From a virus, in IMG/VR virus record IMGVR_UViG_3300020457_000135, positions 1 to 20,565 of that record: a DNA stretch of 20,565 bases; one strand, written 5' to 3'. Each line of letters starts with the position of its first letter. Position 1 is the first letter of the stretch. The position numbers and the translations under genes are program-made. Under the pieces are notes generated by a model. That model worked only from the letters and a program-made list of their open reading frames with translations. It searched no databases and was not told the DNA's origin. Shown piece after piece: positions 3-12,671 of this stretch.

Positions 3-3000
3 CCTGTAGAAACTACTGAGCTTCCTAAACAAACTGTTTCTTCTTTACAGTCTCTTAAAAACTTTGCAAAAACTATTCCTTCTTATGAGCAAGATACTTC
101 TGTTCCTGTTTCTATAGATGTTCCAAAAGTAGATACAGCTTTTACTTTTGAAGATTTACAAAATAAAGCAAGACAAGCTGCTGTAAAAGATAGAGAAATA
201 CAGCGACACGATTATTCTAAATCTTATTCTGTTACTGATCTAGAATTAGGAAGAGGCCCTAGAAATGAAGAAGGAGAATCTTTTATTGAAGTAGCTGAAA
301 GATTTTTACCGTCAATAGGAGAAAGCGAAGATATAAAAGAAACTATGAGAGATAGTGATTATTCAGTAGGAGATGCTATTGCTTTAGGAATGAAATCTAA
401 AAATTGGACATATCAACAGAAAAAAGATTATGCTTTTTTAAGACCTGTATGGAATGATGCAGAATTAAATAATTGGGGAGAGATATTAGAAGCTACTAAA
501 GATATAGGCATAGATATAATTGCTGATCCTATGAATTTATTTTTTGCATATCTTACTGTACAAACAGGAGGAGTCGGTACTTTGGCTTTAACATCAGCTG
601 CTAAAATATCTGCTAATCAAGCTGTTAAACAAGGAATGTTAAAACTTGCTAATAACGGAACTTTTAGAGCTGCAAGTATAGGATTAACAGAAGGTTCTTA
701 TGATGCAGGTATGATTAATCTTGGCAATCAATTAACAGAAGTAAATACAGGACTTAGAAAAGAATTAGATAAAACAGAGCTTGGTGTAAATACAGCAATA
801 GGAGCAGGGTTAGGTTTAACTTTTGCGCCAGCTGCTTATACAACTACAAATTATTTATTAAGAAGAAAAACACAAAAAGTATTAGATGATCTTAAAATTG
901 AAATGGATAAAGGGCCTGTAACTCCAGAAATATTTGAAGAATACAATTCAACATTACAGTTTTTTGATTCTATTATGTCTAATACAACAGGTAAAGCTAC
1001 AAGTAAATTTATTGAAGTTTCTAAAGTAAGCCCGGTAATAAAACAATTTATACTAGGATTAAATCCTAAAGCATTACAACGTATTACTACTGCTAGATCA
1101 GATATTATTGATGCGCCTATTAGAGCTACTTCTAGAGAAGGAGACTTAGGATACTCTACAGATCAAGAAAGATTAAGTGGTTTATATACAACCTTTATAG
1201 ATGAAGTTTTAGATTCTGATATATTTGGAAGAGTAAGAGATAGAGGTAATGGTTGGTGGAATTTAGGCACAGCTTTAGATACTAATGATAATTTATCTTT
1301 AGCTTATTTATTAACTAAAGGAGATCTTTTAGATAATTATATTAAAGTAACTCCTGCAAATCCTAATAAACCGTTTGTTAATTTACAAGTTCAAAGTAAA
1401 GTAAAGAACGTAGTTCCTGATTCTAGAATTACAGAAATGCAAGAAAAATATGGATTAGAATTTAGTGAAGAGTTGTATGAAGCAGCGGCTAAAATAAGAT
1501 ATTTTTTCAAACAAATAGAAGTAGACGCTAAAAATATTGAAGGTATTCGACCTGATGGTTCTTTTAGAATGACTGCTTTACTAGACGAAGAACAGTCTAT
1601 TCCTAATTACTTTCACCGTATATTAGATTATGATGCTATAACAGCAACTCCAGAGTCTAGGAAAATCTTTAGAGATATGTTAGTTCGTTCTGGTCATGCA
1701 GATCCTATTAATACTGTTAAGAAAGATGATGTTGTTATAGTTGAAGAAGCTGTAAAAATGAAAGGATCAGGAGGAAGAGAAAAAGATATTCCTGATATTG
1801 CAAGATCTCCTAGAAGGACAGCGTATATTGAAGACAATACTATAGACAAAGAGTACTTTAAAGATTTAGATTCTCCTTTTATTGAAGGTCAAAAAATATT
1901 AGAAAGATTTGATAGCTTTGAAGATTTAGCTTTAGATGTGCTTAGAGTAGAACAATATAATAAAAAATATAATCCAAAGCCAGTACCAGATGCGGCTTCA
2001 ATTTTACAAAGAGCTAAAGAGTTAAAAGCAGATGCTCTTATGAGAAAGTTAGAAGAAGAGCAATATTTTAAAACAACTGCTAGAACAGCTAATGGAGGTA
2101 AAACAGAGTTTCTTAATAACAGAGTATGGTATATGTTAGATGATGAAGAACTTATATCTAATGGTTTTATTAATACTAATATGCTTCCTTTATTAAAGGA
2201 CTACGGTTATACAATGGGACAAAAAATAACTGAAGCTAAATATTTTGGTTTTGGTAGTAATTTTAGAAGAGAATGGATTCCTGAAATTAGAAAAGAATTA
2301 GAAAGAAGTGGAAAATTTAATAAAACAGAAATAAATAAAATATTATCAAAGCTAGAAAAAATAAAAGATTTAGCTGTAGGTTCTCCTAATAGTCAAGTAA
2401 AACTTCCAACAAGACTTATTAATACATTAGATGTAATTAGAACTACACAAGTATTAGCCCACCTTCCTTTTGCTGCTGTTTCAAGTATTACTGAACCTTT
2501 TATTGCTTTAAGTAAAGCTGATTTACTTAGTGATACTCCTAGTTTTGTAAAAGAATACGCTAAAGCAGGAATACAACAAATTAGAAAAAACATAGGTATT
2601 AATGGTAATTTATGGAAACAAATAAGTTTATCAACAGGAAGAAAAGTTTATGGTTTTAAAAACCTTACTGATGAAGAATTTTTAGATGTAAAAAGATGGG
2701 GAGTTGCTGTTGAACAAAGTATGATGGCTAGAATTGAAGGTATGTTTGCTGAAAATATACAAAACAAATCTGCTAGAAATTTAAACAATATGTTTTTTAA
2801 TTTAAACTTATTGCAACCCTGGACACAAGCAGTACAAATGGGTTCTTTTAATTTTGCAAAAGCAAGAACAATTAGAATAACTAGAGAATTAACAGAAGGT
2901 AAAACTCAATTTGGAAGAAAATTAACTAAAAATGAAATAAAAAGAAGACGAGAACAGTTACACGAAATAGGAATAGACTATCAAGACTCTATAAATGCTT

Positions 3001-6000
3001 ATCAAAACTCTATTGTTAATGGTAAATTTGATTTAAAAACTTTTCAAAATCAAGCTTTTTATGATACACAATTAAATCCAGGCGCACAGTTATTTGCTAA
3101 AGAAGTTATTTTAAATCCTTCTGCTTCTAATTTAAATAAACCTGCGTGGTTTAGTAATCCTTTTGCACAACTTGCTTTTCAGTTTGCAGGTTATCCTACA
3201 GCATTTAATAATACTGTTCTTAAAGGTTTTGCTAGGGATCTTACTCGTTACCCTTTACAAAGCGCACCTAGTATATTAGCAGCAACTACTATGATGGTAG
3301 GAACAGCACATTTAATGAATACAATAAGAAGTCGTGGCGAAAATTTAAAAAACGATGATCAAACTTTATTGTTAGATGCTGTTGAAAGACCAGGATTATT
3401 AGGTTCTGCTTCTCATATTTATAGGTTTAATAAAGGACAAAAATATAATCAAGGTTTTGTAGGAGGAGTTACTAAAGCGTTTGGTGGGCCTTTCTTATCA
3501 GACTATACAGATGCTATACAATATAGCTCTACTCCTTATGAAGTAGCAATACAAAACGCTCCTTTTTGGGGTGCGTTGTCTACAGATTCTAGAAGAGAGT
3601 GGAGAAAGTATGCTAAAAATAAATATCACGATCATTTTGGAAAACCTAAAAAAAATATACGTTCTATAAAAAGAAAAGGTGGTATAGTAGAAGACGTATT
3701 AAATGTTAAATTAGAACCTGATGAAGTTAAGATGAGAGGTCTTCCTTATACTTATAGTGAATTAGCTGGGCCGTTGTTTCAAGATGAAGAAGAAAGAGGT
3801 GCTTTTGCAGAAGGAGGAGAATCTACTTCTATTAAAGATAAAGATGCTACTTATAATTATTTAACTAAAGACGAAGATGAATATAATGTATTTATAGATA
3901 AAGATCCTATAAGGATTTATACAGAAGAAACTTTGCCAGATTTAAATATAAAAGATACATACTACACAGGCTTTAAAGGCAATACAGTCTCTGACAGACT
4001 AAACAGCGTAAGACAATCTAGTACAATAGGGCTTCCTGTAACTAAAGATAAAACAAAAGTAAAAGGCGGTGTAAAAGCTTCAGGTAAAATTAAATTTAAA
4101 AATGTATTGAAGCTCGATATAGACTTAGTTACTCCTGATAGTGTACAGGCAGAGATTAATAATAATATGGACAGTATTATTAAGATTGAAGATAAAGTAT
4201 TAGGTAAAGAAATAATTAATGCTACTACTGATAATTTAAATCTTAGAGATGCTGTTCTTAATAAAGATGATAATGTTACTAATGAAAAGAAAAGAGTTAT
4301 CGAAAGAAACAAAAGTTTCTTAGTAAGACATCAGTTACTTAAACTAGGCTATGATGCTATAGAGACTAACGAGGGCTATACGCTTCTTAGAGAAAACCAG
4401 TTCTTACCTACAGAGATTATGGAAAGAACTAAAGCCTATGGTGGCGGTATGGCTTCTGCATTAAATAGAAGACAACAGTACAACGAGGGTGGAGAGTCTT
4501 ATGGTGATGTAATTGTACAGGACTATAAAGAAGAATTACAAGGTTTAAAAGATATGCTTACAGATCCTGTAGGTATGATTGATAGTATTGGTCAATTAGG
4601 TTTAGGAGCAATAGCATTAGCTATTCCTGATGAATATCAAGAAAGAAAACTAGATCAATATGAAGATCTTGCTAAAGGAGTAGGACAATCTTTAGTTGAT
4701 AATTTTGGAACATTAGAAAAAGCAAAACAAACTATTATAAATAATCCTGTAGGTACAGCAGCAGCTGTATCAGGTTTATTGTTTGGTGGGGGATATGGTC
4801 TTAAAAGAATAGCAGACGCTACTAAAGTCTCTAAAGCTTCTCAGGCAGGTTCTAAAATGATTAAAGCTTCTGACGCAGTTGATCCTATTATTGGGCCTAT
4901 ATTAGGCGCAGGTAAACTTATAACTAGAAGAGATTTTAATAAAGGAGTAGGAGCAACAGCTCTTGCTTCAGCTATTCCTGCTTCTAAAGTATTAGATGAA
5001 GTTGGTAAAGCTAAAACAATTAAAAAACTTACAGGCATAAGCAAGTTTAGAAATATATATGATAATATTGGATATGCTTTAAATGGAAACAAACAAAGAA
5101 CTGATTTAATTGAGGAATTAACTAATGAAGCTCTTAAAGATAAAATACCAATGCACCTTAATGATGCAGGAATTGAAGCGTCTGGAAATTTAGACGATAT
5201 TCTTGAATACGGAGATGCTTTTGAAGCTCAATTAGCTATTGATAGAAAAATACCAGATATAGGTTATGAAACAACAACTAGCGAATTATATAAAGGGTAC
5301 AACCTTACTAGAGTTCGTAGAAAAACAAACGATGTTTTAAATAATTTTCAAAAATCTTTTAAATTAAATAATAACGATTTTGTTGAAATACTTCCTGAAA
5401 GATTAAAAACTGATACTAAAAAATCAAAATTAAATAATACTATAAAAGAACTTATTAATTCTTTTAATAAAACTTCAAATAAAAAAACATACAAAATTGT
5501 TGAAGATTTTGAAGGGATGGAGGATGCAGGATTGCCTTTTGGCGTAGAAATACATAAAGTTACAACTGCTGTTATTGAAGGAGTTCCTGTTATAAAAGTA
5601 GAAATGTATGAAGATATTTCTTCTGGATATAAAAATTGGGGAGCAGAAGAATTTAAAAATTCACAGTTTGTTAAACCTGAAACCATTTCACATCCTGAAT
5701 TTAAAAAAACTAATTATGAAAAAACAAATGAAATGTATTACATACCTAACGAATCTGGCTTGGAAAAACTAGCTAATCCAAAAAAAAATATTACTAAAAG
5801 AGATATGCTAACAGGGTTACGAGATAGAAATAATAAAGGCGGTGAAGTAAGACAACAGTACGGTGTTGGTGGTATTGCTTCTAAGTTAGCACAAAGATTA
5901 CTTAAAAAACAAAGTAAAAAATACAATTTAGCAGAGTCTCAAAAAACTCAAATAGCTACTACTGGAGGTACTTATAAAAAAGCTGCTAAAATAAAAGAAG

Positions 6001-6488
6001 AGTATAATAAAAAAACAGCTTTAGATTATGGATCAGGTATGCAAGTTAAATCAGCAAAACAATTTTTAAATGCAGACACATTTGAACCTTATCCAAAAGA
6101 AAAATATCAAACCCCAGACTTTACAGATCCTAAATTTATAAATAAAAAATATGATTTTATTACAAATTTTTCAGTACTTAATGTGTTGCCTAAAGATAGC
6201 AGAGATCTTGTTGTTAAAGATATAGGAAGATTATTAGATGATAAGGGAATAGCAGTTATTACTGCACGTTCTAAAAAAGATGTTGTTACAGAACAAACTA
6301 AAAAAAATGCTCAACAAATAATATCTGATTCTGAAATTATTACTAAAAAAGGAACATATCAAAAAGGATTTACACAAGAAGAATTAAAATCTTATTTAAA
6401 TAAAACATTAGGAAAAGATTTTGAAGTAATAGAATTACCTAATATTTATAAGATGTCAGGAATAGGAGCATTAGTTAAAAGAAAATGA
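3..6488 (+). CDS. Giant multi-module virion-associated (internal/ejection-type or polyvalent) protein, 5' end outside window
   Basis: The frame is open from the first full codon at position 3, so the gene begins upstream; at least 2,161 residues are visible. The first ~1,200 residues are mixed helical and hydrophobic sequence, for example around nt 520-620, 790-880 and 3130-3330, as in large internal virion proteins that enter the cell with phage DNA. Later modules are separated by glycine-pair joints: an ADP-ribosyltransferase-like segment (about nt 3890-4430, weak), a hydrophobic segment with a twin-arginine-like motif (nt 4923-4987), an unrecognised region (about 5090-5830), and a class I SAM methyltransferase-like domain (about 5990-6480). 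The last has motif I LDYGSG at 6021-6038 and YDFITNFSVLNVLP at 6150-6191. This layout fits 'polyvalent' phage proteins. The gene lies directly before the lysis genes. Being a virion protein is inference from size and position; the methyltransferase fold is better supported than the other modules. Confidence 0.75.
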   Translation, partial: PVETTELPKQTVSSLQSLKNFAKTIPSYEQDTSVPVSIDVPKVDTAFTFEDLQNKARQAAVKDREIQRHDYSKSYSVTDLELGRGPRNEEGESFIEVAERFLPSIGESEDIKETMRDSDYSVGDAIALGMKSKNWTYQQKKDYAFLRPVWNDAELNNWGEILEATKDIGIDIIADPMNLFFAYLTVQTGGVGTLALTSAAKISANQAVKQGMLKLANNGTFRAASIGLTEGSYDAGMINLGNQLTEVNTGLRKELDKTELGVNTAIGAGLGLTFAPAAYTTTNYLLRRKTQKVLDDLKIEMDKGPVTPEIFEEYNSTLQFFDSIMSNTTGKATSKFIEVSKVSPVIKQFILGLNPKALQRITTARSDIIDAPIRATSREGDLGYSTDQERLSGLYTTFIDEVLDSDIFGRVRDRGNGWWNLGTALDTNDNLSLAYLLTKGDLLDNYIKVTPANPNKPFVNLQVQSKVKNVVPDSRITEMQEKYGLEFSEELYEAAAKIRYFFKQIEVDAKNIEGIRPDGSFRMTALLDEEQSIPNYFHRILDYDAITATPESRKIFRDMLVRSGHADPINTVKKDDVVIVEEAVKMKGSGGREKDIPDIARSPRRTAYIEDNTIDKEYFKDLDSPFIEGQKILERFDSFEDLALDVLRVEQYNKKYNPKPVPDAASILQRAKELKADALMRKLEEEQYFKTTARTANGGKTEFLNNRVWYMLDDEELISNGFINTNMLPLLKDYGYTMGQKITEAKYFGFGSNFRREWIPEIRKELERSGKFNKTEINKILSKLEKIKDLAVGSPNSQVKLPTRLINTLDVIRTTQVLAHLPFAAVSSITEPFIALSKADLLSDTPSFVKEYAKAGIQQIRKNIGINGNLWKQISLSTGRKVYGFKNLTDEEFLDVKRWGVAVEQSMMARIEGMFAENIQNKSARNLNNMFFNLNLLQPWTQAVQMGSFNFAKARTIRITRELTEGKTQFGRKLTKNEIKRRREQLHEIGIDYQDSINAYQNSIVNGKFDLKTFQNQAFYDTQLNPGAQLFAKEVILNPSASNLNKPAWFSNPFAQLAFQFAGYPTAFNNTVLKGFARDLTRYPLQSAPSILAATTMMVGTAHLMNTIRSRGENLKNDDQTLLLDAVERPGLLGSASHIYRFNKGQKYNQGFVGGVTKAFGGPFLSDYTDAIQYSSTPYEVAIQNAPFWGALSTDSRREWRKYAKNKYHDHFGKPKKNIRSIKRKGGIVEDVLNVKLEPDEVKMRGLPYTYSELAGPLFQDEEERGAFAEGGESTSIKDKDATYNYLTKDEDEYNVFIDKDPIRIYTEETLPDLNIKDTYYTGFKGNTVSDRLNSVRQSSTIGLPVTKDKTKVKGGVKASGKIKFKNVLKLDIDLVTPDSVQAEINNNMDSIIKIEDKVLGKEIINATTDNLNLRDAVLNKDDNVTNEKKRVIERNKSFLVRHQLLKLGYDAIETNEGYTLLRENQFLPTEIMERTKAYGGGMASALNRRQQYNEGGESYGDVIVQDYKEELQGLKDMLTDPVGMIDSIGQLGLGAIALAIPDEYQERKLDQYEDLAKGVGQSLVDNFGTLEKAKQTIINNPVGTAAAVSGLLFGGGYGLKRIADATKVSKASQAGSKMIKASDAVDPIIGPILGAGKLITRRDFNKGVGATALASAIPASKVLDEVGKAKTIKKLTGISKFRNIYDNIGYALNGNKQRTDLIEELTNEALKDKIPMHLNDAGIEASGNLDDILEYGDAFEAQLAIDRKIPDIGYETTTSELYKGYNLTRVRRKTNDVLNNFQKSFKLNNNDFVEILPERLKTDTKKSKLNNTIKELINSFNKTSNKKTYKIVEDFEGMEDAGLPFGVEIHKVTTAVIEGVPVIKVEMYEDISSGYKNWGAEEFKNSQFVKPETISHPEFKKTNYEKTNEMYYIPNESGLEKLANPKKNITKRDMLTGLRDRNNKGGEVRQQYGVGGIASKLAQRLLKKQSKKYNLAESQKTQIATTGGTYKKAAKIKEEYNKKTALDYGSGMQVKSAKQFLNADTFEPYPKEKYQTPDFTDPKFINKKYDFITNFSVLNVLPKDSRDLVVKDIGRLLDDKGIAVITARSKKDVVTEQTKKNAQQIISDSEIITKKGTYQKGFTQEELKSYLNKTLGKDFEVIELPNIYKMSGIGALVKRK

Positions 6489-6755: not shown

Positions 6756-7238
6756 ATGAAATTTGGAATGATAAAGAACTTAATAGGCGCAGTAGCTCCT
6801 ACAATTGGTACAGCATTAGGCGGGCCTATGGGTAGCATGGCAGCCAATATGGTAGCTGATGCTCTTGGTTGTGAGCCAACACCTAAGAAGATAGAACAGG
6901 CAGTACAGGCAGCAACTCCTGAACAACTGGCAGAACTTAAAAAGATTGACACAGACTTTGAAGTCAAGATGAAAGAGTTAGATGTAGATCTATATGCTCT
7001 AGAGACTAAAGATATCCAGGATGCTAGAACAAAGTTTTCTAAAGACTGGACATCTCGTATTATGGGATTAGTTGTTGTTGGTGGCTTTATGGGTTATATC
7101 TTTCTAATTACTCTTCAACCTCCAGAACAAAACAGCGAAGCCTTGATTAATTTAGTACTTGGCTATCTTGGTGGATTAGCAAGTGCTATTATATCTTTTT
7201 ATTTTGGAGCAAGTAACTCTAATAAAGAAGATAAGTAA
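6756..7238 (+). CDS. Holin-like membrane protein (3-TM, GTA-holin-like)
   Basis: Protein of 160 residues. An N-terminal hydrophobic glycine/alanine segment (about residues 5-38) is followed by a charged helical middle with DIQDARTKFSKDWTSR. Two strongly hydrophobic segments come next (about 101-121 and 131-151), then a short charged tail ending NSNKEDK. This order resembles the 3-TM holins described for gene transfer agents (GTA_holin_3TM). Such proteins sit in the inner membrane and trigger lysis by forming holes. The gene starts one base after the stop of the preceding gene and ends directly at the next ATG. No endolysin is visible nearby, so the lysis role rests on topology and family resemblance recognised by eye. 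Confidence 0.65.
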   Translation: MKFGMIKNLIGAVAPTIGTALGGPMGSMAANMVADALGCEPTPKKIEQAVQAATPEQLAELKKIDTDFEVKMKELDVDLYALETKDIQDARTKFSKDWTSRIMGLVVVGGFMGYIFLITLQPPEQNSEALINLVLGYLGGLASAIISFYFGASNSNKEDK

Positions 7239-7589
7239 ATGCAAGAAGCTATTGATTTTATAAATCAAGTAGGATTCCCTATTGCTAGTGCGCTAGGATT
7301 GGGGTTTTTTATTTGGAAGCTTATAAATAAAATTATTGATGGCATGGAACAAAAGATAGATGTTGTTGATGAGAAAGTAGATGCTAGTCTAAATGCTATG
7401 GAAGAAAGACTTAGTACTAAACTAGACAGTCAATACGGAATAATTGTAGCTTTGATTGATAGAGTAAGATCTCTTGACAATCAAACAATAAGACAAGATG
7501 TACTTCTTAAAACTTTGTTAGGTATTCCTAACTTAATTGAAATAGATAAAGTGAGTAAAGCGGATCGTGAAGATCAAAGAAAAGATTAA
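7239..7589 (+). CDS. One-TM coiled-coil protein, possible holin partner or antiholin
   Basis: Protein of 116 residues starting immediately after the TAA of the holin-like gene, without an intergenic base. It has one N-terminal membrane segment (about residues 8-29, GFPIASALGLGFFIWKLINK) followed by a long amphipathic coiled-coil region (about 30-90, DVVDEKVDASLNAMEERLS). It ends in a charged tail. The topology recalls small BhlA/UviB-type phage holins, but I see no decisive motif. Its position between the holin-like gene and csgF suggests a lysis or envelope role. Its last 23 bases overlap the start proposed for csgF. Confidence 0.6.
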   Translation: MQEAIDFINQVGFPIASALGLGFFIWKLINKIIDGMEQKIDVVDEKVDASLNAMEERLSTKLDSQYGIIVALIDRVRSLDNQTIRQDVLLKTLLGIPNLIEIDKVSKADREDQRKD

Positions 7590-8058
7590 AAAATTAAATT
7601 TAGATATAGCTGCTGCATTCTGCGTATATCTTATTATATTTTTATTTATCTTATCTGCTAAGTTATATGCAGATGAAATACTATTTAAATTTAAAAGTCC
7701 TAGCTTTTCAGGGGTAAACAGTAGTTCGCATTATCTTACAATCGAGAATCAAGAAGCTACTAGAAAACAAGCAATCAAAGATGAGATAGAAGCATATCAA
7801 GATGAGTTAGCTAGAGAAGCAGACAATACTACACTTGCAAGGTTTATTCGTAACTTAGAAAGCAGAATCTACGCGCAGTTATCTAGGCAAATGGTAGAGC
7901 AACTGTTCGGAGAAACACCACAAACATCAGGTACACTTGAGCTAGAGGGAAACACTATTGAATACAAAGTTGAAAATGAGCTTATCACACTTACTATTAC
8001 AGATGAAGAAGGTAGCGTTACCAGTATTTCTGTTCCTATCGGTTCTTTTACTTTCTAG
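7567..8058 (+). CDS. csgF: CsgF-like curli assembly protein
   Basis: Protein of 163 residues from a GTG start. The N-terminus has basic residues, a hydrophobic core and an ALA-type cleavage context (AKLYA before DE, about residue 35), giving a Sec signal peptide. The predicted mature N-terminus carries FKFKSPSFSG, matching the FQFRNPNFGG element by which E. coli CsgF inserts into the CsgG pore. The helical middle (TLARFIRNLESRIYAQLS) and the C-terminal strand-rich part ending TITDEEGSVTSISVP also follow the CsgF order. In curli systems CsgF caps the CsgG channel at the outer surface and links the nucleator to it. The start is chosen because it gives a full signal peptide; it overlaps the preceding gene by 23 bases and its SD is weak. 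csgG follows in an overlapping frame, the expected partner. Confidence 0.9.
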   Translation: MKIKEKIKKLNLDIAAAFCVYLIIFLFILSAKLYADEILFKFKSPSFSGVNSSSHYLTIENQEATRKQAIKDEIEAYQDELAREADNTTLARFIRNLESRIYAQLSRQMVEQLFGETPQTSGTLELEGNTIEYKVENELITLTITDEEGSVTSISVPIGSFTF

Positions 8059-8818
8059 TTGTGCGTCTAGAGATTTACTGAACGGAAATGGAATACCTTA
8101 TATTATAATTAAAAGTTCTTCAATATTAGAACTACAATCCGAAGAACTCAATAGTCTTCCTAGAGCTAAAAGAAAACCAGTAATAGCTATATATCCTAAT
8201 AGTTTTAGAGATCACACAGGACAAAGGAAATCTAACGGTAGCTTTGCTTTGTTCTCTACAGCAATTACACAAGCACCAGAAGCTTTTCTTATAAGAGCTT
8301 TGAAACACGCATCAGATGGAGAGTTCTTTCAAGTAGCAGAGCGTGTAGGTTTAGAGTCTTTAACTAAAGAAAGGCAACTTATACGCAGTACAAGAGAAAC
8401 ATTTGAAGAGGACAGCAGCGTGAAACCTCTTTTACTAGCAGGACTGTTGATTCAGGGAGGAGTGATAACATATGACAGTAATGTAAAGTCAGGAGGTACA
8501 GGAGCAAGACTGCTAGGAGTAGGAAGTTCTAAACAATACAGAGAAGATTTAATTACCATATCTTTGAGATTAGTTTCTGTCTCAACAGGAGAGGTACTGA
8601 TAGAAGTATTAGTATCTAAAACAGTTACATCAGCAGGGATTTCGCAAGACATCTTTAGATTCATAGATGAAGGGCAAAGACTTGTTGAGGTAGAAGGGGG
8701 AGTTGCAGAGAACGAAAGTACCTCTATAGCTCTACAACAGGCAATAGAAGAAGGTGTTTTACAAATAATAAAAACAGGAATAACCAGGGGGTATTGGGAA
8801 TATGAAGAAACTAATTAG
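8003..8818 (+). CDS. csgG: CsgG-like outer-membrane curli secretion channel lipoprotein
   Basis: From this ATG the protein has 271 residues, close to E. coli CsgG (277). A lipoprotein signal peptide ends in the lipobox LSSC with C20. Family signatures follow in order: the FSTA stretch (F84, equal to constriction residue F56 of E. coli), TYDSNVKSGGTGARLLGVG (157-174), the strand LRLVSVSTGEVL (188-199), DIFRFIDEGQRLVE (216-229), and an end ITRGYWE. CsgG forms a nonameric outer-membrane pore that passes unfolded curli subunits. The equivalents of E. coli Y51 and N55 are Gly79 and Leu83, so the constriction differs. An in-frame TTG at 7958 with an AGGGA upstream is an alternative start, but it would put 15 extra residues before the signal peptide. 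The gene overlaps csgF by 56 bases and the next gene by 17. Confidence 0.93.
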   Translation: MKKVALPVFLFLSVLLLSSCASRDLLNGNGIPYIIIKSSSILELQSEELNSLPRAKRKPVIAIYPNSFRDHTGQRKSNGSFALFSTAITQAPEAFLIRALKHASDGEFFQVAERVGLESLTKERQLIRSTRETFEEDSSVKPLLLAGLLIQGGVITYDSNVKSGGTGARLLGVGSSKQYREDLITISLRLVSVSTGEVLIEVLVSKTVTSAGISQDIFRFIDEGQRLVEVEGGVAENESTSIALQQAIEEGVLQIIKTGITRGYWEYEETN

Positions 8819-9509
8819 CTTATTGTTGCTTATATCTTATAGCGTGATAGCTGATGATAACGAAATCTATGTAGATCAAGTTGGTGCTACAGCGAATATA
8901 GATCTTGAGCAATTAGGAAGTGGTAACATAATCGGAGGCTTACTATCGACACACGGCTCTATGACTCCGTTTGATTTAGACGGTACAACTATGACACTAG
9001 ATGTCAATCAGATAGGTAATAATAACAAAATGTTAGGTGACATTAACGCAGATACCTTTACAGGTATTTTTGATTTTGATGGTGATACAAACTCGTACAC
9101 TATTCAAGTTGATCCTACAAATACTTATAGTGCAGATAACTCAAATGTAAACGTAGATGTGGACGGCAGTACAAATACATTTACTCTTGATCTAGCTACA
9201 AATGCTTTATCTAGTGGTGCAGATATAGACACTATAGTTCAAGGAGATTCAAATACTGTTAATATTGATTTAGATGTAGACTCGGCTACTAACTATATAG
9301 ATCTTGATGGTGATAGTAACACAGTTAATTATGATGGAGATGGCTATGCGTCTGGGTACTTCAAGTTGGAACACGATGGTAACTCAAGGTCGTTTGCTGT
9401 TGATCAGCAGTCTACTTTGGATAACGATTGGTTGCGTATTACATCTAACGGAAACAACGGAACGGTATGCGTTAATCAGGACGATCAAGGCACAAGCGTT
9501 GGATGTTGA
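8802..9509 (+). CDS. Curlin-repeat (CsgA/CsgB-like) secreted protein
   Basis: Protein of 235 residues with a short signal peptide (MKKLISLLLL to SVIA, cut near residue 17). The mature start has curlin-type repeats: YVDQVGATANIDLEQLGSGN and later VNQIGNNNK, with the Q-x-G-x-x-N spacing typical of curli subunits. The middle and C-terminal parts become rich in Asp, Asn, Ser and Thr in alternating patterns such as GDSNTVNIDLD and GDSNTVNYDGDG, suggesting a stacked beta or beta-helical fold. The last 16 residues hold two cysteines (CVNQDDQGTSVGC). A strong SD (AGGGGG, about 10 bases upstream) lies inside the end of csgG, overlapped by 17 bases. The family makes extracellular amyloid subunits exported through CsgG. 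It is more acidic than CsgA, so it could be a nucleator or a divergent substrate. Confidence 0.75.
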   Translation: MKKLISLLLLISYSVIADDNEIYVDQVGATANIDLEQLGSGNIIGGLLSTHGSMTPFDLDGTTMTLDVNQIGNNNKMLGDINADTFTGIFDFDGDTNSYTIQVDPTNTYSADNSNVNVDVDGSTNTFTLDLATNALSSGADIDTIVQGDSNTVNIDLDVDSATNYIDLDGDSNTVNYDGDGYASGYFKLEHDGNSRSFAVDQQSTLDNDWLRITSNGNNGTVCVNQDDQGTSVGC

Positions 9510-10527
9510 TATAGGAAGTATTACAGAACTAAACGGAAACACCAGAGTAGTAAGAGACAAACCATATGAAAGTGCTATAGACTTTTCTCTTAACTCTATG
9601 GATAAATTAGAGACTGCAAAGGGCAGGATGGGTGTTACGTTTAGGGATGATACTCTTATAAAGCTCACGGAGAATAGTACTGTTATTTTAGATGAGTTTG
9701 TGTTCGATCCTAATCCTAGCAAATCTACAATGGCTCTTAACTTTGTTAAAGGCACAGGCCGTTTTATATCTAGTAAGAAACCACGCATACCAAAAGATAA
9801 TATTAAGATTCGTACCCATTCGGCTTCAATTGGAATAAGAGGTACAGACTTCACAATAACTGTAAAAGAAACTGGTGAAGCTCTGGTGATACTTTTGCCT
9901 GATGAGTTTGGTAATGCTAGTGGAGAGATAGTTGTAGATACAGCTCTAGGACAAGTGATACTCAACAAGCCCTATGAAGCTACTACAGTCTATAACTTTG
10001 AAACAGCTCCTACTCCTGCTGTTATTCTTGATTTGACTGTCGATATGATAGACAACATGTTGATTGTTAATCCTCCACAAAGAGAAGACCAAGAATCAGA
10101 AGAAGGAACTGCAGTAGCAGATAACATACTTGACATAGATGCTCTTGAGTTTAGTGATTTAGATGAAGATGAACTAAAAGAAAACAAACTAGAATATACA
10201 GAGCTTGACATCGACTATTTGGCAGGTAATTTTTTAGAGGATTTGTTAGACGTAATACAAGATGTAGATGAACTAGAAAAAGCTGAGAAGTCTTTGTCTG
10301 CTGATGGAGTAAAAGGAACAGCAGTAGGATACGATAGTAATACACAAATAAGTACATTTGTAACTGATACGCATTTAAAGTTTCTTAGATCTATAGAAGA
10401 TACATTAGAAATGAAAGTAGATAAAGCAGGTTCGTATAATATTCGGATTGAGCAGGAAGGGAAAGTAAATCAGATAACTACAAATGGTGGTAGCAGTTCT
10501 AATATTACAATAAAACAAGGCAGTTAA
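9376..10527 (+). CDS. FecR-domain protein with acidic linker and C-terminal curlin-like repeat
   Basis: From the ATG at 9376 the protein has 383 residues. A FecR domain lies at about residues 44-155: IGSITELNGNTRVV, then MGVTFRDDTLIKLTENS, then FVKGTGRF and HSASIGIRGTDFTI. FecR domains of this type are usually periplasmic or surface-exposed. A very acidic linker follows (about 250-310, with FSDLDEDELKEN). The final 31 residues read as curlin-like strands: NIRIEQEGKVNQIT and NITIKQGS. The start is uncertain because the frame overlaps the curlin gene by 134 bases. From 9376 there is a hydrophobic stretch (LLLISSLLWITIGCVLHL) that could anchor or export it; the minimal start is TTG at 9500. The gene closes the curli locus, and its tail suggests it is built into or binds the curli-like polymer. 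The FecR assignment is firm; the role is inference. Confidence 0.8.
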   Translation: MVTQGRLLLISSLLWITIGCVLHLTETTERYALIRTIKAQALDVDIGSITELNGNTRVVRDKPYESAIDFSLNSMDKLETAKGRMGVTFRDDTLIKLTENSTVILDEFVFDPNPSKSTMALNFVKGTGRFISSKKPRIPKDNIKIRTHSASIGIRGTDFTITVKETGEALVILLPDEFGNASGEIVVDTALGQVILNKPYEATTVYNFETAPTPAVILDLTVDMIDNMLIVNPPQREDQESEEGTAVADNILDIDALEFSDLDEDELKENKLEYTELDIDYLAGNFLEDLLDVIQDVDELEKAEKSLSADGVKGTAVGYDSNTQISTFVTDTHLKFLRSIEDTLEMKVDKAGSYNIRIEQEGKVNQITTNGGSSSNITIKQGS

Positions 10528-10755
10528 TTATGTTATACGAGCATTTAAGTCCGCTTCAATTTTATTATGTACTGCGTCTAATTCAGTTGTCGCACTTCTT
10601 AGTACGGACTGTAACAGGCTAAATTCTTCTTTACTTAAAAACTTTTTTAGTTTTTTAATGTCTGTAGATATTCTTTCTGTTATTAACTGTCCTTGTTTAT
10701 TAAACAAAACTGTATAAGCTAACAGCTTTGCTTCTTCCCTTTTTATTCTTGCCAT
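10528..10755 (-). CDS. Small helical protein of unknown function
   Basis: Protein of 75 residues, basic at the N-terminus (MARIKREEAK) and predicted mostly helical, with heptad-like stretches (STDIKKLKKFLSKEEFSLLQ). No motif is recognised. Its ATG overlaps the reductase stop by one base (TAATG), so its translation is likely coupled to the reductase. It is the last gene of the leftward arm; its stop codon directly abuts the stop of the FecR-type gene on the other strand. Confidence 0.7.
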   Translation of the reverse strand: MARIKREEAKLLAYTVLFNKQGQLITERISTDIKKLKKFLSKEEFSLLQSVLRSATTELDAVHNKIEADLNARIT

Positions 10756-12671
10756 TAAATTATCTCACATGTTCCTGCACTACAGGCTAGTTCTTTAGTA
10801 TTCTCTGTATTATCTTCAGTTTCATACTCAGTAATCTTTGACCAATCAACACTATCTGTTGTTTTCTTTAGCCACTTTCTATACTCATTATAAGTTATCT
10901 CTTGATAAGGAGCTTGTTTGTATGAATGATCTGAATAAGGAAGAAAAGAAATCCCGGATATATCATTAAAGTTTCTATATACCCAAGCACCTACTCCTAA
11001 CCATTCATCTTCTTTTACTGAGATAGTTACAGAGGGTTTATGTTCACACCATTTATCTTGATAGTCTTTCCATATTTCTAAATGTTCAATAGCTGACAAG
11101 TCTTTTCTAGTTAATGCACCTTTAGGACTTTTCATAGGAAAGTAAAAGACATAAGTGTGTTCTGGTTTAGTAAGATCGTCTTCATAATATACTCCTGCAT
11201 CTACCATAAGTTTAGCTAGAGGATCTTTTTTATCTGCTCTTACTGTACGAAGGTAGTATGGGCTATGTCTAGTGTGAATACCAGAGGCACTATCGACCAG
11301 TTGACTAACTGTTCCACTAGGCTTCACACAGGTTATCGCTGCGGATTGGGGTATGCCTAGCTTCTTAGCCCATACTTTATTTACATCAATAGATACTTTC
11401 TTTAATCTATCTAAATCTATTTTACCATTTATCATATTAGTGTTATCCATTATTCCTGTAAGAGATACACCAAGTAAAGATTCTTCTTCTGTATTATTTT
11501 TCCATTTGCTAGTTAAGTATCTAAAGTTTGTTAACGTTGCTTGGAACGTACCTAGAATTGTAGCAGCTTCTACTTTTGAGACTAAAGAGTCTTCTGTATC
11601 ATCAGGTCTTACAACAACCTCAGTTAAATTACAGAACTGTTTGTTGCGTAGAATAATCTCACTACATGGATTACATCCAAAGTCTTTGTAATCTTCTCTT
11701 CTTCCATTTTTAGCGGCTTGTTTTTCTGCGGCTTGTCTATTAAAGATACCACGTTCTCCGCTTTTAGATTCATAAAGTGATAACCATTCTCTCATAAATG
11801 CACCAGGTTCTGCTACATCTGTATAGGCTACAGAGTTGTTAGATAAAGCTCTCTGCTGATTGTCTTCCCACCAAGCACCTGACTTAGCGTTACGCATACG
11901 GTTGTCTGAGAGATTGCTGAGAGAGATTAAAGCACTTCGCCTTACTCCTCCTACGACTACCACTTCTGCGACCTTACACATCAAATCGTGGCAGTCTATA
12001 GATACAAGCTTACGTTGTCCTTTTGTAATAGCATCACGGAATATGTTAATAGTAAAATCAAATAACTCTTCAAGAGGAGCAGGGCCACTTGCTCTTCCTC
12101 CAAATGTTTTTAATCTAGCACCATAAGGTCTTATGTTAGAGACATCCCATGTAGGAACTTGACCTGAGTAAAGTAAGGATAATAATTCTTTGTAGGCTTT
12201 TGCCCATCCTATTTTAGAATCAGCTACTTTTATAATGGTATCTGTAGGAAACAAATCTTCTGGAAGATCTGGTAGCTCGTTTATATACTGACGCTCTACA
12301 CTAAAGCCAACACCAGTACCACACATAAGTATGTAAAGTGTCTCATCAAATGCACGAACATTATCTACAGCAACATAGCTACAGTTAAAACCTGCTACAT
12401 TATCTTTTTCTAAAGCTAATCCTGCAGACATTAATGCTCTCATACTTGGCATAATGTTTAAATACAGTACAGCTTTTTCTAAGTACTTTCTAGTTTCATC
12501 GAACTTCGATTTACTTAGGTTATGATTTTCTTTTAAATGTTTCTCAAAGAAATCAAAGTATCGAGATACAGTTTCATCCCATGTTTCTCTGCGTTGATTT
12601 TCTTCATTCCATCTAGCGTATCTGCTTAGATGTATAAACTGTTGATAGTTAGTAGGTAGTTGTGTATTCAT
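10755..12671 (-). CDS. nrdJ: Class II (adenosylcobalamin-dependent) monomeric ribonucleotide triphosphate reductase
   Basis: Protein of 638 residues that reduces ribonucleotides to deoxyribonucleotides for phage DNA synthesis. The active-site set is complete: C97 (FNCSYVAVD), NPCSEI with the likely thiyl radical C336 and E338, and C347 (FCNLTEV). The C336-C347 spacing of 11 equals C408-C419 of the Lactobacillus leichmannii enzyme. A C-terminal CSAGTC pair (C630, C635) matches the re-reduction cysteines of that family. No glycyl radical motif and no small-subunit gene are present, which supports the B12-dependent class. It is shorter than the 739-residue Lactobacillus enzyme. Class II reductases of this sort are common in marine phages. 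One-base TAATG overlaps link it to the genes on both sides. Confidence 0.95.
   Translation of the reverse strand: MNTQLPTNYQQFIHLSRYARWNEENQRRETWDETVSRYFDFFEKHLKENHNLSKSKFDETRKYLEKAVLYLNIMPSMRALMSAGLALEKDNVAGFNCSYVAVDNVRAFDETLYILMCGTGVGFSVERQYINELPDLPEDLFPTDTIIKVADSKIGWAKAYKELLSLLYSGQVPTWDVSNIRPYGARLKTFGGRASGPAPLEELFDFTINIFRDAITKGQRKLVSIDCHDLMCKVAEVVVVGGVRRSALISLSNLSDNRMRNAKSGAWWEDNQQRALSNNSVAYTDVAEPGAFMREWLSLYESKSGERGIFNRQAAEKQAAKNGRREDYKDFGCNPCSEIILRNKQFCNLTEVVVRPDDTEDSLVSKVEAATILGTFQATLTNFRYLTSKWKNNTEEESLLGVSLTGIMDNTNMINGKIDLDRLKKVSIDVNKVWAKKLGIPQSAAITCVKPSGTVSQLVDSASGIHTRHSPYYLRTVRADKKDPLAKLMVDAGVYYEDDLTKPEHTYVFYFPMKSPKGALTRKDLSAIEHLEIWKDYQDKWCEHKPSVTISVKEDEWLGVGAWVYRNFNDISGISFLPYSDHSYKQAPYQEITYNEYRKWLKKTTDSVDWSKITEYETEDNTENTKELACSAGTCEII

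Follow-up and report, generated by a model that had tools for sequence, protein, structure and literature searches.

We analysed a 20,565-base IMG/VR fragment (IMGVR_UViG_3300020457_000135), hereafter the window, in which the late strand of a marine phage closes with a curli secretion (csg) block. The block comprises genes for CsgF, CsgG, a curlin-like subunit and a FecR-domain protein, and is preceded by the genes of a 160-amino-acid (aa) membrane protein and a 116-aa protein (Table 1). The late genes lie on the + strand, and the last of them, from the 160-aa protein to FecR, overlap or abut one another. A scan for promoters and terminators gave no informative signal. The genes at 7239-10527 overlap one another, the first of them abuts the 160-aa gene (6756..7238), and the neighbouring gene on the opposite strand ends at 10528, flush against the end of the FecR gene (10527).

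Table 1. Features in and around the csg block, with positions in the window
Feature	Position	Strand	Evidence
160-aa membrane protein, candidate holin (phrog_1544)	6756..7238	+	Adjoins csg block in many relatives
116-aa protein, N-terminal hydrophobic helix and likely coiled coil	7239..7589	+	phrog_18771, E 1.9e-14; weak match to holin phrog_4898, E 0.0012
CsgF	7567..8058	+	Signal peptide followed by FKSPSFSG motif; PF10614; phrog_35372, E 3e-44
CsgG, outer-membrane lipoprotein pore	8003..8818	+	PF03783; PDB CsgG profile match; codon-shuffle test
Putatively secreted curlin-like subunit (CsgA/B type)	8802..9509	+	Signal peptide MKKLISLLLLISYSVIA; two conserved C-terminal cysteines
Probable FecR signal peptide or anchor, within the curlin gene	9376..9509	+	+1-frame overlap
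FecR-domain protein with C-terminal curlin-like tail (QEGKVN...NITIKQGS)	9376..10527	+	PF04773; phrog_37870, E 1.5e-63
B12-type ribonucleotide reductase (RNR)	10755..12671	-	64% to HMO-2011; convergent module, lineage marker

Genes of the csg block

CsgF matches PF10614 with 65.6 bits (cut-off 25.8, E 6.6e-18), and CsgG matches PF03783 with 163.7 bits (cut-off 20.8, E 4.6e-48). A profile built from phage CsgGs retrieves the E. coli CsgG structures 3x2r and 6l7a at E ~1e-62. These matches bear out the identities that a sequence-only reading of this DNA had given to both genes; a phmmer search of PDB with CsgF as the query recovered no CsgF. The true start of csgG is probably the ATG at 8003, which yields the lipoprotein signal MKKVALPVFLFLSVLLLSSC, and the lipobox cysteine is invariant in 8/8 sequences. 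The CsgG signal peptide is overprinted on the 3' end of csgF (8003-8058): a codon-shuffle test applied to csgF recovers the lipoprotein signal, serving as positive control, and synonymous variation at this end of csgF is reduced (ratio 0.75, P 0.02).

The curlin gene follows csgG in all contigs that reach that far. Its product is homologous to the curlins of the phages HTVC008M (31%, E 1e-22) and Melnitz (30%, E 1e-14), the latter of which itself passes PF07012. It exhibits seven G-x-x-N turns, compared with 1.9 in shuffled sequences (P 0.003), and is predicted to be all-beta (predicted local distance difference test, pLDDT, 78). Two cysteines (C223 and C235, window 9468-9506) are invariant in 16/16 podophage curlins compared, and a disulfide between them at the end of the subunit is possible. 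The earlier curlin call is the weaker one on its own, its family-profile match being below the cut-off, but it is supported by homology, motif excess and predicted fold. In Melnitz (L045:5701-8495), the products of both curlin genes score above the PF07012 cut-off and the record labels them curlin repeat proteins, although the Melnitz paper states that csgA and csgB are lacking (PMC9004378).

The FecR protein matches PF04773 (45.2 bits, E 1.3e-11), and its C-terminal Q-x-G-x-x-N stretch is kept in 15/15 compared proteins with a complete C-terminus. The curlin-like protein and the FecR protein with its curlin-like tail, both proposed earlier, stand as candidate substrates. CsgF, CsgG and the curlin carry export signals. 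As had been noted, CsgE is not seen: PF10627 found no match in eight phage records (several of them fragments, the window included), and the E. coli control was positive. E. coli can make curli without a strict need for CsgE, and CsgG assembles without requiring CsgF (PMC7029224).

The csg block recurs in identical order, as far as the contigs extend, in 42 IMG/VR contigs, the closest of which share phage genes both upstream and downstream of it. Because of this recurrence, a chimera of a phage and a bacterial contig, which the sequence-only reading had named as a risk, is ruled out. A bacterial source of the block was also rejected: in six of the eight genome-contig matches the gene set is of the phage type, and these appear to be phage contigs that were binned into metagenome-assembled genomes (MAGs). 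The other two, L052 and L053, have a bacterial look, and neither shows FecR beside its csg genes. The six phage-type contigs (L046-L051) come from GTDB MAGs named Maricaulis, Neomarinimicrobiota, Flavobacteriaceae, Rhodobacteraceae and Pelagibacter, and in two of them the block lies beside phage lysozyme genes; they are probably mis-binned phage DNA, which would mislead searches for bacterial curli. A 1499-base 'Salmonella phage' record, OR851715.1, matched through a csgG at 41% identity and is possibly host DNA.

Lysis neighbourhood and possible roles of the block

Lysis genes identified in some of the contigs served as queries against the set. An endolysin lies within ~6 kb of the block in 19/42 IMG/VR contigs, and also near the block in L046 and L051. 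Rz-like spanin genes directly follow FecR in L035, L036, L038 and L042; in L051 they follow with a cyclase gene in between. A candidate holin of 160 or 104 aa stands beside the block in most contigs. Endolysins and spanins were identified through family matches of representatives, and the holin calls are weak. The 160-aa protein exhibits two C-terminal hydrophobic helices, as read from its sequence, and one of its phage-database relatives overlaps a gene annotated 'holin'; no Pfam family was matched among its relatives. The lysis-type neighbourhood described earlier holds and is clear in the relatives.

Two side observations concern neighbouring genes. The 2047-aa late protein at 345-6488 contains an endolysin-family stretch (phrog_7348) and GG-containing linkers, and its C-terminal part, which matches HTVC103P (38%), reads like an S-adenosylmethionine methyltransferase. 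A cyclase gene, absent from the window, follows the block in some phages (L044:8784-10619, L026:8085-9905, L051:8519-10267); those of L044 and L051 exhibit CHASE2 and cyclase domains, and that of L026 is called by similarity.

We consider the block to be a minimal curli (type VIII) secretion operon carried by the phage, which closes the late strand and would provide a surface amyloid or sticky coat at the lysis stage, a reading that we place slightly above even. CsgF and CsgG would assemble into a pore complex in the outer membrane, presumably ungated because no CsgE was found. The curlin subunit and the FecR protein would be exported by Sec and then pass through or dock at CsgG, and the FecR protein may nucleate or anchor the amyloid in a CsgB-like role. 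The resulting coat on the infected cell would be produced at about the same time as the lysis proteins. By gluing infected cells to debris and to hosts nearby, it could bring released virions to hosts sooner.

Several observations weigh against this reading. The constriction residues Y51 and N55 of E. coli CsgG are not kept in phage CsgG according to the alignment, and export specificity is therefore uncertain. The PF07012 match in the window (8853-8927) reaches 14.2 bits, below the cut-off of 20.7 (E 0.0014), and a fold search of the predicted curlin structure against PDB gave no significant match. In the clade of the window, ~20 residues separate the hydrophobic stretch of the FecR signal from the FecR domain downstream of it, which is an unusual layout, and the structural model of FecR is poor (pLDDT 47) and unfit for a fold search. 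The window itself showed no endolysin next to the block. Furthermore, infection by Melnitz produced no visible clumping (PMC9004378).

It is unlikely, with an appreciable residual chance, that the block is primarily a lysis aid, in which the CsgG/CsgF pore helps to depolarise or permeabilise the envelope at lysis and the curlin and FecR proteins are secondary. This role has been proposed for Melnitz (PMC9004378), and it fits both the lack of a CsgE gene in the eight phage records and the endolysin, Rz-like spanin and holin-like genes that adjoin the block in many relatives. However, the curlin and FecR genes are retained in every locus long enough to show them, which argues against a bare pore, as such a pore would not need them. 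CsgF is likewise retained, even though it is dispensable for CsgG assembly (PMC7029224), and envelope disruption is already provided for, several contigs having spanin genes together with an endolysin.

Superinfection exclusion, in which a surface amyloid would stop rival phages from adsorbing to the infected cell, fits the same anatomy of the locus and has been proposed (PMC9599517). We regard it as rather improbable, since the position of the block at the end of the late strand near lysis-type genes suggests late expression, when exclusion would help least.

The FecR protein and the small upstream protein

The FecR reading frame probably begins inside the curlin gene, at ATG 9376. The FecR domain and curlin-like tail of the earlier gene call stand, but its start is corrected accordingly. 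The FecR gene follows the curlin gene in the window and in the 37 relatives where both are readable; in all 38 loci (window included) it is in the +1 frame relative to the curlin gene, and the curlin stop codon marks the start of its conserved part. Upstream of this point, the +1 frame is open for 46-76 codons in 24/25 distinct loci and for 29 codons in the remaining one, compared with medians of 2-22 codons in codon shuffles that preserve the curlin protein. The overlap holds a hydrophobic stretch in excess of the shuffles (mean P ~0.01-0.03 per locus, the loci being related and not independent), and the remaining alternative frame across the curlin 3' end is not open in the codon-shuffle analysis. 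With regard to the far relatives, L047 and L051 exhibit good signal-like stretches in the overlap, and L046 a weak one. The synonymous-rate test found no constraint in the overlap at the curlin 3' end (ratio 1.00), which weighs against an overprint; the case for it therefore consists of the open frame and its hydrophobicity. The FecR homologues of HTVC008M and Melnitz exhibit a plain signal peptide and a curlin-like stretch at their end.

From these features, the FecR protein is probably exported and substrate-like. Its features resemble those of a substrate or anchor that is exported and has a curlin tail, not those of a regulator, and the Q-x-G-x-x-N tail and the myophage signal peptides speak against a role as inner-membrane transducer. 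Tentatively, and with somewhat less than even confidence, we propose phage FecR as a second substrate of the type VIII system, a curlin-tailed surface protein that would tip or anchor a phage-made amyloid. Its export signal would lie out of frame inside the curlin gene, and translation of subunit and anchor would be linked in a lysis-stage adhesion module.

Alternatively, FecR could be translated by +1 frameshifting from the curlin gene, as a CsgA-FecR fusion, and not from its own internal start. The constant +1 frame in 38/38 loci, the conserved FecR part starting exactly at the curlin stop and the unconstrained overlap would all suit such a fusion. We nevertheless find it improbable: the +1 frame is open far beyond the shuffle medians and is more hydrophobic than in the shuffles, myophage FecR bears its own signal peptide, and no known slippery motif was recognised by eye at the curlin stop.

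A published account places one or two histidine kinases immediately upstream of the csg genes (PMC9599517). At this position, we find either one protein of 116-117 aa or two of 84-98 aa, each with one hydrophobic helix at the N-terminus and, probably, a coiled coil. Their matches are to phrog_18771 and, at a weak level, to a holin family. Pfam and NCBIfam scans found no kinase domain in them, and HATPase_c was found in 0/8 phage records searched (HTVC008M and Melnitz included), with 14/14 control genomes positive. Judged from its sequence, the gene that stands where the published account has a 'histidine kinase' encodes a small one-helix protein without a kinase domain, the equation of the two being based on position and number. 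Regulation of the operon by an iron-dependent FecR regulator and this kinase, as annotated in PMC9599517 and as a FecR domain match would allow, is very improbable, given the missing HATPase_c domain, upstream proteins too short for a kinase (84-117 aa), a FecR that ends in a curlin-like tail and has an export signal, predicted or plain, and the absence of any sigma factor family match among the main window genes scanned.

Carrier lineage and comparison with known systems

The DNA polymerase of the window is 49% identical to that of HTVC103P, and its primase shows 44% identity to the HTVC103P/HMO-2011-like group. The nearest isolates are HTVC103P, HTVC104P and HTVC115P by polymerase and HMO-2011 by RNR (64%), so the former label of a T7-like phage is loose. 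The match of the polymerase to HTVC027P is weak, the comparison being with the end of the HTVC027P polymerase gene. RNR of the window type occurs on about half of the 42 related contigs, and L022, L026, L028, L035 and L036 have a structural gene in common with HTVC027P. By these comparisons, the carrier is an HTVC103P/HMO-2011-like podovirus of a lineage distinct from the HTVC023P type. In a CsgG tree built by a quick method, for which two very long bacterial branches served as outgroup, podovirus CsgGs form one strongly supported group in which two phage backbones are intermixed, which at most hints at exchange of csg genes between lineages.

The view that a podovirus locus with its own substrates is a distinct case fails, as csgF, csgG, csgA/B and FecR were described in 2022 in nine HTVC023P-type podovirus genomes (PMC9599517). 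That study also raises the ideas of aggregation and superinfection, and reports phage curli operons to be widespread in the ocean and expressed. Reports of csgF and csgG also concern pelagimyophages, at an earlier date (PMC7029224), and the methylophage Melnitz (PMC9004378). HMO-2011 and curli were not found together in the literature examined, and such fragments may hide in published GOV2.0 counts. The known hosts of phage curli operons have no curli of their own.

Like the window, the HTVC023P-type podoviruses lack CsgE, and their genes run in the order small protein(s)-csgF-csgG-curlin-FecR. In contrast, the window phage is HTVC103P/HMO-2011-like and has neither a second curlin nor a cyclase; the text of PMC9599517 does not describe lysis-gene neighbours or FecR export, and mentions no holin, endolysin, signal peptide or frameshift. 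HTVC008M and Melnitz exhibit homologous CsgF (~42%), CsgG (40-43%), curlin (~30%) and FecR (~38%) and small proteins at the same place as in the window. However, they are T4-like, carry a second curlin and a CHASE2-cyclase downstream, and their csgG and fecR signal peptides overlap the preceding gene hardly or not at all. The bacterial curli operons (E. coli csgBAC/csgDEFG, Granulosicoccaceae L052 and Alphaproteobacteria L053) also comprise CsgG and curlin-type proteins, with CsgF in L052. The phage set differs from them in lacking CsgE, and L052 and L053 differ in having no FecR, small membrane protein or cyclase homologue beside csgG. What is new here is the carrier lineage, the lysis neighbours in relatives, the lack of a kinase domain upstream, a FecR protein that appears substrate-like and the putatively overprinted signal peptides. 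The lack of a kinase domain, the probable export of FecR and the frequent company of lysis genes in more than one podovirus lineage narrow the likely role of the phage operon to the cell surface near lysis.

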